Assembly: GCA_009780995.1 (NCBI GenBank)
Contig: WQYY01000002.1
Span: 1 to 35,812, forward strand
Reading direction: 5' to 3'
Length of the DNA stretch: 35,812 nt
Source: Desulfuromonadales bacterium
Lineage (GTDB): Bacteria > Desulfobacterota > Desulfuromonadia > Geobacterales > DSM-12255
A program made the translations under genes and the position numbers. Each line of letters starts with the position of its first letter. Position 1 is the stretch's first letter. The notes under the pieces were generated by a model. That model did no database searches. It saw only the letters and a program-made list of their open reading frames with translations, and was not told the DNA's origin. This document shows positions 321 to 34,772 of this stretch, one piece after another.

Positions 321-494
321 ATTGCCTAATTATATAACTATCGAGAGAATTGTGTAATCCTAATATTATTATAATATATAGTTTGGATTTCTTACCAGCC
401 CAGGTATTACCTCAGCTAACAAAAATATAAGCATATAAAAAACCATTGAAACTGCATTGCCTAATTGTATAATAATAAAGAGGAATGGGTAATA
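321..494. repeat. Family A composite repeat, copy 1 (ATTGCCTAAT hairpin - GGTATTACC palindrome - ATTGCCTAAT hairpin)
   Basis: ATTGCCTAAT at 321-330 and 456-465 flank CAGGTATTACCTCAGCTAAC (394-420). Same order as at 15911 and 18493. The right-hand hairpin partners are degenerate (GAATTGTGTAAT, GAATGGGTAAT). Confidence 0.75.
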
Positions 495-15739: not shown

Positions 15740-15885
15740 TTCAGCTTTTTACTATTTATCGTGTTAGCCTCGTCTCAGGACATTCGACACCTGTAGGGGC
15801 GATCATTAATCGTCCGAAATTCCCCTCCCTGGAGGGGTGCCCGAAGGGCGGGGTGGTTATCTGGCGCACACTGTGCGCCCCTACA
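15740..15885. repeat. Family B/C repeat element 1
   Basis: Left TTTCAGCTTTTTACTATTTATCGTGTTAGCCTCGTC (C-type end); TGTAGGGGCGATCATTAATCGTCC (15792-15815); CCCCTCC/GGAGGGG TGCCCGAAGGGCGGGG (about 15820-15856); GGCGCACACTGTGCGCCCCTACA (15863-15885). Confidence 0.75.
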
Positions 15886-15910
15886 CATCTGAAGCCAGCA
15901 TGTTTCAAAT

Positions 15911-16057
15911 ATTGCCTAATTATACGAAAAAAAGAAAATCAGCCAAGAAATATAAGATACAATATTATCTGTTAGCTCAGGTATTACCTCAACTAACAGG
16001 AATAACGTCATAAAAGAATAATTGCCTAATTGTACAAATTAAACAGAATTAGGCAAT
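15911..16057. repeat. Family A composite repeat, copy 2
   Basis: ATTGCCTAAT 15911-15920; GTTAGCTCAGGTATTACCTCAACTAAC 15971-15997 (11 of 13 bp paired); ATTGCCTAATTGTACAAATTAAACAGAATTAGGCAAT 16021-16057. Confidence 0.85.
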
Positions 16058-16107
16058 AAACCATTTTACCTAATAACAAAGGATTTTGAGCCATAGACGA
16101 AGCGTCC

Positions 16108-16205
16108 TGTAGGGGCACGATTTATCGCACCCTGTTTATCATATCCACATTGAGCGCGATAAATCGCGCCCCTACGGTCAAATCATACGCGACGAAGGCA
16201 ATGTA
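16108..16205. repeat. Family B/C repeat element 2
   Basis: TGTAGGGGCACGATTTATCGCACC (16108-16132) paired with GCGCGATAAATCGCGCCCCTACG (16154-16176), then ACGCGACGAAGGCAATGTAGCAAG, related to family C right ends. Confidence 0.75.
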
Positions 16206-16229
16206 GCAAGCGGCCATTAATCGAAGCCG

Positions 16230-16706
16230 TCAAGGATATAGCCTGAAGATCTGTTCCGCTATGCATGCCGGCTTTTCACTTCCCTCAATCTCAACTTTTA
16301 TTTCATATATGATTTGGACGGCATCTTTTACCTCTTCAACATCTTTTACACTGCTTTTTGCCCGAATTTTTGAGTTAACCGGCACAGGCGCGGGGAAACG
16401 GACTTTATTAAGGCCGTAATTCACTCTTAACTTCATTCCGGGATAGTTTTTCTGAAATTCACCTTCAGCGTTGCTCCCTGTGAGCATGGGGATAAGGGAT
16501 AGTGTAAGAAAACCATGGGCTATGGTTGTACCGTATGGGGACTCATTTTTTGCTCTTTCAGAATCTATATGTATCCACTGATTGTCTCCTGTTGCCGATG
16601 CAAATTTATTGATTCTGTCCTGGTTAATAAGAAACCAGTCACTTGTCTGAACTTCATATCCTATTTTTACTTTATATATGTTTAAAAGGTTTTCTATTGG
16701 TGTCAT
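16230..16706 (-). CDS. MaoC-family (R)-specific enoyl-CoA hydratase/dehydratase
   Basis: FASATGDNQWIHIDSERAKNESPYGTTIAHGFLTLSLIPML hot-dog hydratase motif. Confidence 0.88.
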   Translation of the reverse strand: MTPIENLLNIYKVKIGYEVQTSDWFLINQDRINKFASATGDNQWIHIDSERAKNESPYGTTIAHGFLTLSLIPMLTGSNAEGEFQKNYPGMKLRVNYGLNKVRFPAPVPVNSKIRAKSSVKDVEEVKDAVQIIYEIKVEIEGSEKPACIAEQIFRLYP

Positions 16707-16722
16707 AAATTATTCCCATTTG

Positions 16723-16880
16723 CAGCTTCCGCTTTTGGTCATCTGTGGTGTTGCCGTCGTTGTGTCTCGTCATGTAGGGGCCGTTGGCAAACGACCCGGG
16801 GGTAAAAATATTCAATACAGGCGGATTGCCATCCGCCCCTACGCATGCTGTCTGGCATGTGAGCCAAAATCCGAAGTCAT
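16723..16880. repeat. Family C terminal inverted repeats enclosing a family B pair (element 3)
   Basis: GCAGCTTCCGCTTTTGGTCATCTGTGG (left) versus reverse complement of right end ATGACTTCGGATTTTGGCTCACATGCC; inside, TGTAGGGGCCGTTGGCAAACGACCC (16773-16797) and GCGGATTGCCATCCGCCCCTACG (16821-16843). Confidence 0.8.
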
Positions 16881-17077
16881 CTTTTTATGGAATATACTTT
16901 ACCATTCAATTCAACTTTGTCTCCATTATAAAGTTTTCTACCACGTCTGAATTCTTTTTCCCCATTTACGAAAACCAGACCTTCAGTTATCAAGATTTTT
17001 GCTTCTCCTCCTGAATTTACTGCACCAACTAATTTGAGAAAGCTGTCCAACTTTATATATTCGGTAGCTATCTCCAT
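16877..17077 (-). CDS. S4-domain RNA-binding protein (YaaA/RlbA-like)
   Basis: MEIATEYIKLDSFLKLVGAVNSGGEAKILITEGLVFVNGEKEFRRGRKLYNGDKVELNGKVYSIKR. Internal Met preferred over the longer ORF start at 17113. Confidence 0.82.
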   Translation of the reverse strand: MEIATEYIKLDSFLKLVGAVNSGGEAKILITEGLVFVNGEKEFRRGRKLYNGDKVELNGKVYSIKR

Positions 17078-17343
17078 CAAATATCCTTTGTTGGCAGTTG
17101 TAATATCATACAATTTTCAATTCATGTCTTTACTTTTGAAATTATCTATATACCCCATTTCGGTATCTCTTTACAGAAATTTATTGTTGGAGTATCAATA
17201 CGACAGTCAGAGAAATTTATTTTAATCGACAGGAATTCACGTTGATTTGTTTGATTAAAAAGCGCTGACTGTAAAATAAAAAGTAGATCGCATCAGGTGA
17301 ATAATACAAAAAGCAGATAAACATTCTTTTAGGAGTAGTCGTC

Positions 17344-18420
17344 ATGATTAGAAAAATTGGGATCGTTTTACAAGTCATCGGTTGGGTTTGTTTAGTTATT
17401 ATCATTGTGAGCGGCTTTAGTGGAGTCGTCCAACAATATGTTTCGGCCAGTAAAACATTAGAAAGTTTGTCGGATATTATAGTGTATGGCCCTATAGGTA
17501 TTGGCTTAGGTCTATTTATGACAATGAGAGGCGGCAAGGGTAAAAAAGTCAAAAATGGCCCGTTAGTTATAGGGAAATTGATGTCAGTGCAAGAGACCGG
17601 CACCTATGTAAACTATCAAGAGGAATTTAAACTGACGTTTCAATTCACAACACAAGATGGGCAACAGATAACAGCTAAGGAAAGAAGGGTTATTTCAGCG
17701 GTCGAAGGGGCACAGTACCAGCCTGGCATGGAATTTCCGATCCGATATAACCCTAAGAAACCTCGGGATTTCATGATTGATTTTAAAGCTAACGAGAACA
17801 GCATTACGCCGGCGTTTGAGCAATCTGCTGGGATTACCGAGCAGGCGAAAAACGGCCCGTTGGTCGTAGGCAGAGTAGTTTCTGTCAAACCGACAACCGA
17901 CGCGGACATGGATGGAAAGAAAATATACGAAGTTTCCATTCAGTTTACTACACAGGCAGGTAGGGCAGTGATAGCTGTGTCAAGGCAAGCTGTTTCACCG
18001 GCCGATCTGCCACGGTTACAGAACCCGGATATGGCACTTCCACTCCGATACGATCCCAATAATCCGCAGGACATAATGATCGATAACCATGCTGACCCTG
18101 AAGAAGTTCGGAAAGCCATGAATAAATACGCTGTGGCGGCTGGTCTGACGACGCAGGAAGCGGTGGATATAAGAGACAACGGAGTACAGGCCACTGGCGT
18201 CGTCATTCAGTCCAAACCTAGTGGCAATGTCGTAAACGGTGCGTCAGAGATGGTATTGACCATTCGCGTGACAAGACCGGACAATACGGGTACATATGAT
18301 GTCACCACAACCAAAAACGTCATGCAAAGCGCCATACCATTCACCACTCCAGGCAGTATGGTGCACGTTTTCTACATGCCCGATAATGAACAGAATGTTG
18401 TTGTTACGTTTCACGCTTAA
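17344..18420 (+). CDS. Hypothetical membrane protein with N-terminal TM helices and three tandem DUF3592-like beta domains
   Basis: Hydrophobic N-terminus (IGIVLQVIGWVCLVIIIVSG...IVYGPIGIGLGLFM), then repeated KNGPLVxGxxxSV...QFTTQxGxxxxAxxR...PxRYxPxxPxDxMID. Confidence 0.75.
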   Translation: MIRKIGIVLQVIGWVCLVIIIVSGFSGVVQQYVSASKTLESLSDIIVYGPIGIGLGLFMTMRGGKGKKVKNGPLVIGKLMSVQETGTYVNYQEEFKLTFQFTTQDGQQITAKERRVISAVEGAQYQPGMEFPIRYNPKKPRDFMIDFKANENSITPAFEQSAGITEQAKNGPLVVGRVVSVKPTTDADMDGKKIYEVSIQFTTQAGRAVIAVSRQAVSPADLPRLQNPDMALPLRYDPNNPQDIMIDNHADPEEVRKAMNKYAVAAGLTTQEAVDIRDNGVQATGVVIQSKPSGNVVNGASEMVLTIRVTRPDNTGTYDVTTTKNVMQSAIPFTTPGSMVHVFYMPDNEQNVVVTFHA

Positions 18421-18426
18421 CGCACT

Positions 18427-18487
18427 TATGACTTTTGCTTTCTCATATAGTGCGTAGCAACACCGCAGATGACCAAAAGCTGAAACC
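18427..18487. repeat. Family C inverted pair without family B core
   Basis: TGACTTTTGCTTTCTCATATAGTGCGTAGC facing GCAACACCGCAGATGACCAAAAGCTGAAACC. Confidence 0.7.
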
Positions 18488-18492
18488 ATTTT

Positions 18493-18668
18493 ATTGCCTA
18501 ATTGTATAAGCTCTCGTAGAATTAGGCAATCATGCTTTAACCACTTTCTCTGTAGCGTGATTTCTATAAGCTGAGGTAATACCTGAGCTAAGAGAAAATA
18601 TAAATTATATATCATAATAGTATAATTATTGCCTAATCCTACAAATGCTAATAGGATTAGGCAATAAT
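18493..18668. repeat. Family A composite repeat, copy 3 (best conserved)
   Basis: Hairpin ATTGCCTAATTGTA...TAGAATTAGGCAAT (18493-18530), palindrome ATAAGCTGAGGTAATACCTGAGCTAAG (18566-18592), perfect 17-bp stem ATTATTGCCTAATCCTA / TAGGATTAGGCAATAAT (18625-18641 / 18652-18668). Confidence 0.88.
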
Positions 18669-18672
18669 TAAT

Positions 18673-19247
18673 ATGACTTTTGCTTTTGGTCATATACGGC
18701 GTTAGCCTAGTCGCGGGCCACTCAACGAGTGTAGGGACCGCCATTGGCCGTTCGTGTTATCGAGCGACCGGGGACGATCGCTCCTGCGATTGGTGTGTTT
18801 CACTTACGCTCTACCCGCCCTACGAGTTGCCTTCCTACTCTGCCCGTAGGGCATTTATATCAATATAAGAATCGTACCATATCTGCATAGTCCGTATGAC
18901 TTTAATATTAATTAAATATCAGAATGTTAAAGTCCTATGGACTATTGATTTGTTGTTACCTGTTTTCTATTGATATGGAAGCCCTACAGGCTGATTAATA
19001 CAATTATTGCGCGGTATAAGATGAGGCAAACACAGCATATGACCAAAACCCAAGGTGAAATAAAAGAATAACGGATTTCGAATTTTGTGCTCCGACAAGA
19101 CCGGCAAGGGTGAAGGGAGGAGGTGTAGAGTGTAGGGGCGCACTGTGTGCGCCCGATAACACGGGCGACAGAGACTGCCACTACAAACGTTGAGCAAGAC
19201 GCGACGAAGGCAACACAGCATATGGCCAAAAGCCGAAGTCATATAGA
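18673..19247. repeat. Approximately 575-bp region bounded by family C terminal inverted repeats
   Basis: Left ATGACTTTTGCTTTTGGTCATATACGGCGTTAGCC; reverse complement of right end ATGACTTCGGCTTTTGGCCATATGCTGTGTTGCC. Interior contains family B motifs at 18730 and 19131 and a hairpin at 18888-18944. Confidence 0.75.
18888..18944. repeat. Inverted repeat/hairpin
   Basis: TAGTCCGTATGACTTTAA (18888-18905) versus reverse complement of TTAAAGTCCTATGGACTA (18927-18944): 16 of 18 match. Confidence 0.7.
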
Positions 19248-34613: not shown

Positions 34614-34626
34614 AAAGCACAAACCA

Positions 34627-34759
34627 TGTAGGGGCGCACTGTGTGCGCCCGCTGTTGTTCGTTTTTAAATTCCCCTCCTGTGGAGGGGTGCCCGAAGGGC
34701 GGGGTGGTGACGCCCTGTTTATCATACCCTCATTGGGCGCGATAAATCGCGCTCCTACA
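34627..34759. repeat. Family B element with mosaic structure
   Basis: TGTAGGGGCGCACTGTGTGCGCCCGC (34627-34652), AAATTCCCCTCCTGTGGAGGGGTGCCCGAAGGGCGGGGTGGT, CCTGTTTATCATACCCTCATTGGGCGCGATAAATCGCGCTCCTACA (to 34759). Confidence 0.82.
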
Positions 34760-34772
34760 GGACGCCTTACTT

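Follow-up and report, generated by a model that had tools for sequence, protein, structure and literature searches.

What is an element in which two hairpins enclose a central palindrome, and does it act as RNA, as mobile DNA or as a set of sites in double-stranded DNA? The question is raised by three copies within the stretch of DNA analysed here (the window, 35,812 nucleotides), which represents contig C2 of a 1.72-Mb assembly of 135 contigs that is 81.5% complete. The initial annotation had offered a structured RNA, a single-stranded DNA hairpin substrate or a MITE, an interpretation that we find partly supported. All three copies lie where it had placed them, the third having the same sense on the minus strand:

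321..493, plus strand: copy 1, class A; decayed are the inner arm of the left site (321-358) and the outer arm of the right site (456-493)
395..419, plus strand: central palindrome of copy 1, centre 407
15911..16057, plus strand: copy 2, class B'; the left site (15911-15947) has a decayed inner arm, the 37-bp right site (16021-16057) is intact
15972..15996, plus strand: central palindrome of copy 2, centre 15984
18493..18665, minus strand: copy 3, class A; four half-sites, all exact
18493..18530, minus strand: 38-bp right site of copy 3 (element orientation)
18567..18591, minus strand: central palindrome of copy 3, centre 18579, the exact midpoint of the two sites
18628..18665, minus strand: 38-bp left site of copy 3 (element orientation)

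The claim that all copies share the same architecture holds for copies 1 and 3, which form a class with 38-bp sites whose starts are 135 bp apart, whereas copy 2 belongs to another (37-bp sites, 110 bp apart), its two site centres each lying 55 bp from that of the palindrome. The spacings, given at the time as about 40 and 25-35 nt, are in fact nearly base-exact within each class. As an observation apart from these copies, the intergenic DNA of the window at 15800-15890, 16100-16175, 18720-18860 and 34620-34760 is dense in GTAGGGGCG-type palindromic repeats.

Copy number, classes and geometry

The cassette is a small non-coding DNA family with more than 100 copies in one bacterial genome. The outer hairpins had been suspected of resembling each other beyond chance, and they do: the pattern ATTGCCTAATN{5,34}TTAGGCAAT, describing exact ATTGCCTAAT...TTAGGCAAT hairpins, has 76 matches in the 1.72-Mb assembly and 0 in the reversed control. 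A pattern search for TTGCCTAATN{17,18}ATTAGGCAA yielded 96 matches, and the palindrome core, one mismatch being allowed, was found 95 times in the assembly (control 0). In the sequence taken for analysis, stretches of contigs C1-C65 amounting to 1.27 Mb, the 25-bp central palindrome occurs 119 times (at most 6 mismatches in 25), and 116 of these occurrences are classifiable, that is, distant enough from contig ends. Four classes (A, B', B and C) with ATTGCCTAAT sites at class-specific offsets comprise 98 of the 116; the other 18 consist of 15 class D palindromes with different flanks and three without any recognised flanking site. Checked across the genome, the fixed order of the modules is conserved, so the disorder that the initial annotation had named first among the observations speaking against it is not what the genome holds.

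The half-site measures 15 bp (ATTGCCTAATnnTMY) and mostly occurs together with an inverted partner across a spacer of 7 or 8 bp. Expressed as starts of 10-bp half-sites relative to the palindrome centre, with a tolerance of 2 bp in class assignment, the offsets are as follows:

Class A, n=40: -86>, -58<, 49>, 77<; two 38-bp inverted pairs, centres -67.5 and +67.5
Class B', n=5: -73>, -46<, 37>, 64<
Class B, n=20: -63>, 36>, 63<
Class C, n=33: -57<, 65<

The two class A site centres were detected 28 times on each side, with few detections elsewhere, and 28 class A copies, picked for well-kept half-sites, align over 173 columns with zero gaps, bordered as AATT-ATTGCCTAAT...ATTAGGCAAT-AAATT. Similarity between class C copies starts near the left-site centre, the outer arm being missing in most of them. 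At the 80% level the exact register is found in 29 of 40 class A, 23 of 33 class C and 13 of 20 class B elements. The distances of site centres are about 45, 54-56 and 66.5-67.5, and their steps near one helical turn are suggestive, with three positions only. Separately, it was observed that in the class B copies at C14, C27 (16378) and C51 the interior is turned round with respect to the repeat that flanks other class B copies.

Class D is without a ATTGCCTAAT half-site; its 15 palindromes are flanked, at exactly -28 and +28, by direct repeats of the ATYRRTCGR type. Identical 9-mers of this type within 150 bp of each other form 15 pairs in the fetched contigs and L126, all with a spacing of 56. 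Among 19 class D elements (C1:11944 and 18 more, e.g. L126:599-663), 15 have identical repeats on both sides and four have repeats that differ in one base, compared with 4.4 identical on average and a maximum of 11 under shuffling. The inner positions of the repeats vary between copies, and the variant is not clearly linked to interior columns. Many copies have common sequence beyond the right repeat, both the repeats and that flank occurring almost only in class D elements, and no unoccupied site was seen. Target duplication was considered as the source of the repeats; it fits their identity and the lack of linkage, but is opposed by the shared right flank and the missing unoccupied site, and the origin of class D is unexplained.

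Placement, conservation and the nature of the sites

The cassettes are placed behind genes: against an ORF-based gene call (1054 genes, 86% coding), 74 of 110 elements lie in tandem gaps, 35 in convergent gaps and a single one in a divergent gap, where about 21 would be expected by gap count and 17 by gap length. Class C, with 19 of 33 copies in convergent gaps versus 5.3 expected, carries A/T tracts between the convergent genes. The same kind of placement bias is known for GTAG REPs (PMC3733652), and GTAGGGGCR sites are common nearby, 64 of the 119 palindromes, as a raw count, having one within 300 bp. Dispersed copies have unrelated flanks and sharp borders, and elements were also found nested with other repeats.

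Among copies with recognisable sites, on which all conservation statistics rest and which introduce a bias toward conservation, the information per position in class A is highest in the half-sites (1.8-1.9 bits), lower in the palindrome (about 1.5) and the spacers (about 0.9), and falls to 0.16 outside. A strong bias is argued against, since only three palindromes are without a recognised flanking site and half-sites away from palindromes have about chance frequency, as far as this can be estimated. Nearest neighbours chosen by spacer sequence are 69% identical in the spacers and 94% in the half-sites in class A; the respective values are 77% and 96% for class C and 83% and 92% for class B, where one pair reaches 90%. 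This difference between half-sites and spacers, together with the gapless alignment, indicates that sites and spacing were kept while the remainder drifted, and as no pair of class A spacers is more than 78% identical, class A shows no recent duplication. Inner and outer sites of class A are equally conserved. Concerted change between sites was not detected in classes A, B and C, except in the left site of class A, where base 1 gives a weak signal. Sites and spacing look as if preserved for the binding of a putative protein.

Whether selection acts on DNA or on a transcript can be judged from base pairing. A compensatory change had been read into one stem of copy 3; it turns out to be one of many combinations of freely varying half-sites, and 70 pooled 38-bp hairpins pair at the shuffled level (inner variable positions, paired versus shuffled: 31 v 30.2; 21 v 25.9; 29 v 35.6; 43 v 41.6). 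All 28 aligned class A copies are mismatched at position 12 of the right hairpin, T13 of the half-site hardly varies while its neighbours do, and the palindrome often places C opposite C at +-6 (class B has C in 18 of 20 copies on the left and likewise in 18 of 20 on the right). Some signals exceed shuffling, namely one inner pair of the class A right site (150-159; p 0.007, uncorrected for multiple tests) and, weakly, two positions of the class A left hairpin (p 0.03 and 0.02, likewise uncorrected). The whole-structure covariation score of class A is above all 500 shuffles, pair counts and types are not, and this control ignores relatedness. As covariation is mostly missing at the variable arm positions, we read the selection as one on double-stranded protein recognition rather than on an RNA stem, and the half-sites as double-stranded sites for a putative protein dimer.

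A structured RNA or 3'-end RNA element, whose hairpins would be transcribed behind genes and stabilise or terminate transcripts, seems quite improbable to us. The downstream placement, with class C and its A/T tracts between convergent genes, and the weak covariation of the class A left hairpin would agree with it, as would the folding, which is better than that of dinucleotide shuffles for the whole class A element (mean z -4.8) and for the class C centre (-16.4 kcal/mol, z -5.2). However, any palindrome folds, the pooled hairpins are without covariation, and the right hairpin is systematically mismatched; moreover, the terminator scan of the window did not pick the cassette stems, and the Rfam comparison proposed earlier returned only RNase P and a tRNA from the window, with no family matching the cassette.

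The 15-8-15 format of inverted half-sites is also that of tyrosine recombinase core sites, from which the classes could have arisen by exchange at the site centre. Such site-specific recombination would explain why class C similarity ends at the left-site centre and why a few class B interiors are inverted relative to the flanks of others. Nevertheless we hold it for very improbable, because within an element the left and right sites differ in their 8-bp centres, in conflict with the identical overlap of lox/dif-type sites, adjacent variable positions do not match across sites, and only three integrase-family genes were found, none of them adjoining an element.

Transposase genes and a probable mobile past

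The Y1-type transposase genes comprise an IS200 tnpA (C97), an IS200-like gene (C24) and three RAYT-like genes (C71, C1 and C51) that score below NCBI's RAYT cut-off. The RAYT-like gene of C51 is bracketed by two copies of one 15-mer in inverted orientation, ATTGCCTAATCGTGT, which belongs to a class A element, and ACACGATTAGGCAAT, just past the annotated start; of the 245 exact half-sites in the contigs analysed, two have the tail CGTGT of this 15-mer, and both are the ones at this gene. An autonomous element with the same ends had been called for, and in the 81.5% complete assembly this gene, flanked by the same half-site, is the only one that comes into question; being one case, it may serve as a candidate for the origin of the family. 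A class A element follows the C1 gene at about 55 bp, on one side only, and the C71 gene has no adjacent element; bracketing by a half-site in only one of three RAYT-like genes counts against the RAYT link. The tnpA of C97 is preceded by a class D element. Two side observations concern the genes themselves: the C97 tnpA (L126:689-1084) has H-L-D in place of the expected HUH motif, and RAYT-like frames (L129:1466-1650, L128, L130) appear, by eye, to hold REP-like palindromes (GTAGGGGCG...CGCCC) twice, inverted and in frame.

In classes A, B, B' and C target duplications were no more frequent than after shuffling, and in the search for empty sites the joined flanks matched other repeats partially, with no clean junction. 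The MITE suggestion accordingly survives as a statement on the past, since a mobile, MITE-like history is likely; for the present, the lack of target duplication and of a clean empty site in the ATTGCCTAAT classes, along with the conservation, points to selection in place. We consider the cassette best read as an old repeat that was probably once spread by a Y1/RAYT-type transposase.

In essence the cassette may still be mobile, a non-autonomous element of MITE, PATE or REPIN-like kind whose half-sites and palindrome serve a transposase in trans as ends and subterminal sites and were kept since only intact copies moved, although we think this somewhat unlikely. Dispersal in many copies with unrelated flanks and sharp borders, RAYT-like and IS200 genes of which some stand beside elements, nesting with other repeats and the resemblance of class D direct repeats to target duplications all suit such an element, and the conserved ends and inner sites could equally be transposase requirements. 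Classes A, B and C, on the other hand, are without target duplication, a clean empty site was not found, near-identical copies are absent, and inner sites are as conserved as outer ones.

Relation to known repeats

The family appears confined to its lineage. Hairpin and palindrome are absent from 146 related genomes, in sets that contain no second genome of the genus, and a phylum sample, which overlaps the 146-genome set, adds 395 other genomes without the hairpin. The search of relatives suggested at the outset gave no related copies in the GTDB species scanned: one exact pattern met solely a single-site family in Psychrobacter (seven hits), which was rejected as a relative, the flanks being alike (one hit inspected) and the hits therefore taken as one unrelated site. 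The palindrome is absent from the viral matches, and the literature matches listed for the cassette sequences treat unrelated subjects only. As observations in their own right, the Psychrobacter sequences (L137-L142) have a single conserved TTGCCTAAT-N18-ATTAGGCAA site, lying in L141 upstream of a gene that by eye is OsmC/Ohr-like, and phage contigs such as L150 (884-951) have a TTGCCTAAT/ATTAGGCAA site between two divergent genes of small DNA-binding regulators (one inspected, by eye).

Among known systems, REP/BIME repeats (GTAG REPs with RAYT; PMC3733652, PMC2817692) share with the cassette the many intergenic copies, the alternating palindromic units at regular spacing, the position between tandem and convergent genes, which was confirmed here, and the Y1 transposase genes of the genome. 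The cassette, however, has no GTAG or CGTC tag at the palindrome end, its sites are 37-38 bp with 15-bp half-sites, and a second, unrelated palindrome is fixed at its centre, in several exact geometries. TIR-associated tyrosine transposases or TIRtrons (PMC3733652) recall the C51 RAYT-like gene between inverted half-sites in a genome with repeat families, but such bracketing is limited to one of three RAYT-like genes here and the cassette repeat is composite. PATEs and other small mobile repeats of Haloquadratum (PMC3119063) are likewise transposase-free, with palindromes near the ends, heterogeneous with short conserved parts and free of target duplication; unlike in these, single-stranded hairpin use is unsupported in the cassette, whose variable stem positions do not keep pairing overall, and the link to an IS605-type element is unproven. 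MITEs (NEMIS, ERIC, RUP; listed in PMC3733652) agree in size (70-300 bp), inverted ends, intergenic position and copy number, and class A ends (ATTGCCTAAT / ATTAGGCAAT) are terminal inverted repeats, but the cassette has neither target duplication nor an identified source transposon with the same ends, and its inner sites are conserved like the ends. Lacking a REP tag as well as a MITE target duplication, the cassette is filed under neither.

We give about an even chance to the cassette being a family of composite palindromic repeats, intergenic and lineage-specific, that acts like a BIME-type DNA cassette. A dimeric protein would bind each half-site pair and another protein the central palindrome, both on double-stranded DNA, so as to form a compact nucleoprotein array downstream of genes, perhaps as transcript end, domain boundary or supercoil sink. 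At an earlier time the family would have been dispersed, perhaps through a tyrosine transposase of the Y1/RAYT type, and its copies would since have been maintained in place through selection on sites and spacing. Class D, which makes no use of the half-site, and the covariation signals of class A count against this reading. More speculatively, and with a clear lean toward doubt, these could be undescribed, lineage-specific nucleoprotein arrays of chromosome-wide extent, in which the central palindrome is joined by flanking sites of one of two unrelated types, ATTGCCTAAT half-sites or the class D 9-bp direct repeats with their concerted changes, in steps of about one helical turn.

Repeats of the REP/BIME type are usually accounted for as parasites or as host sites. 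The nearly exact spacing, the several geometries and the sites kept beside drifted spacers make this question testable here, and if the array reading is right, proteins recognising ATTGCCTAATnnTMY and the palindrome should exist.
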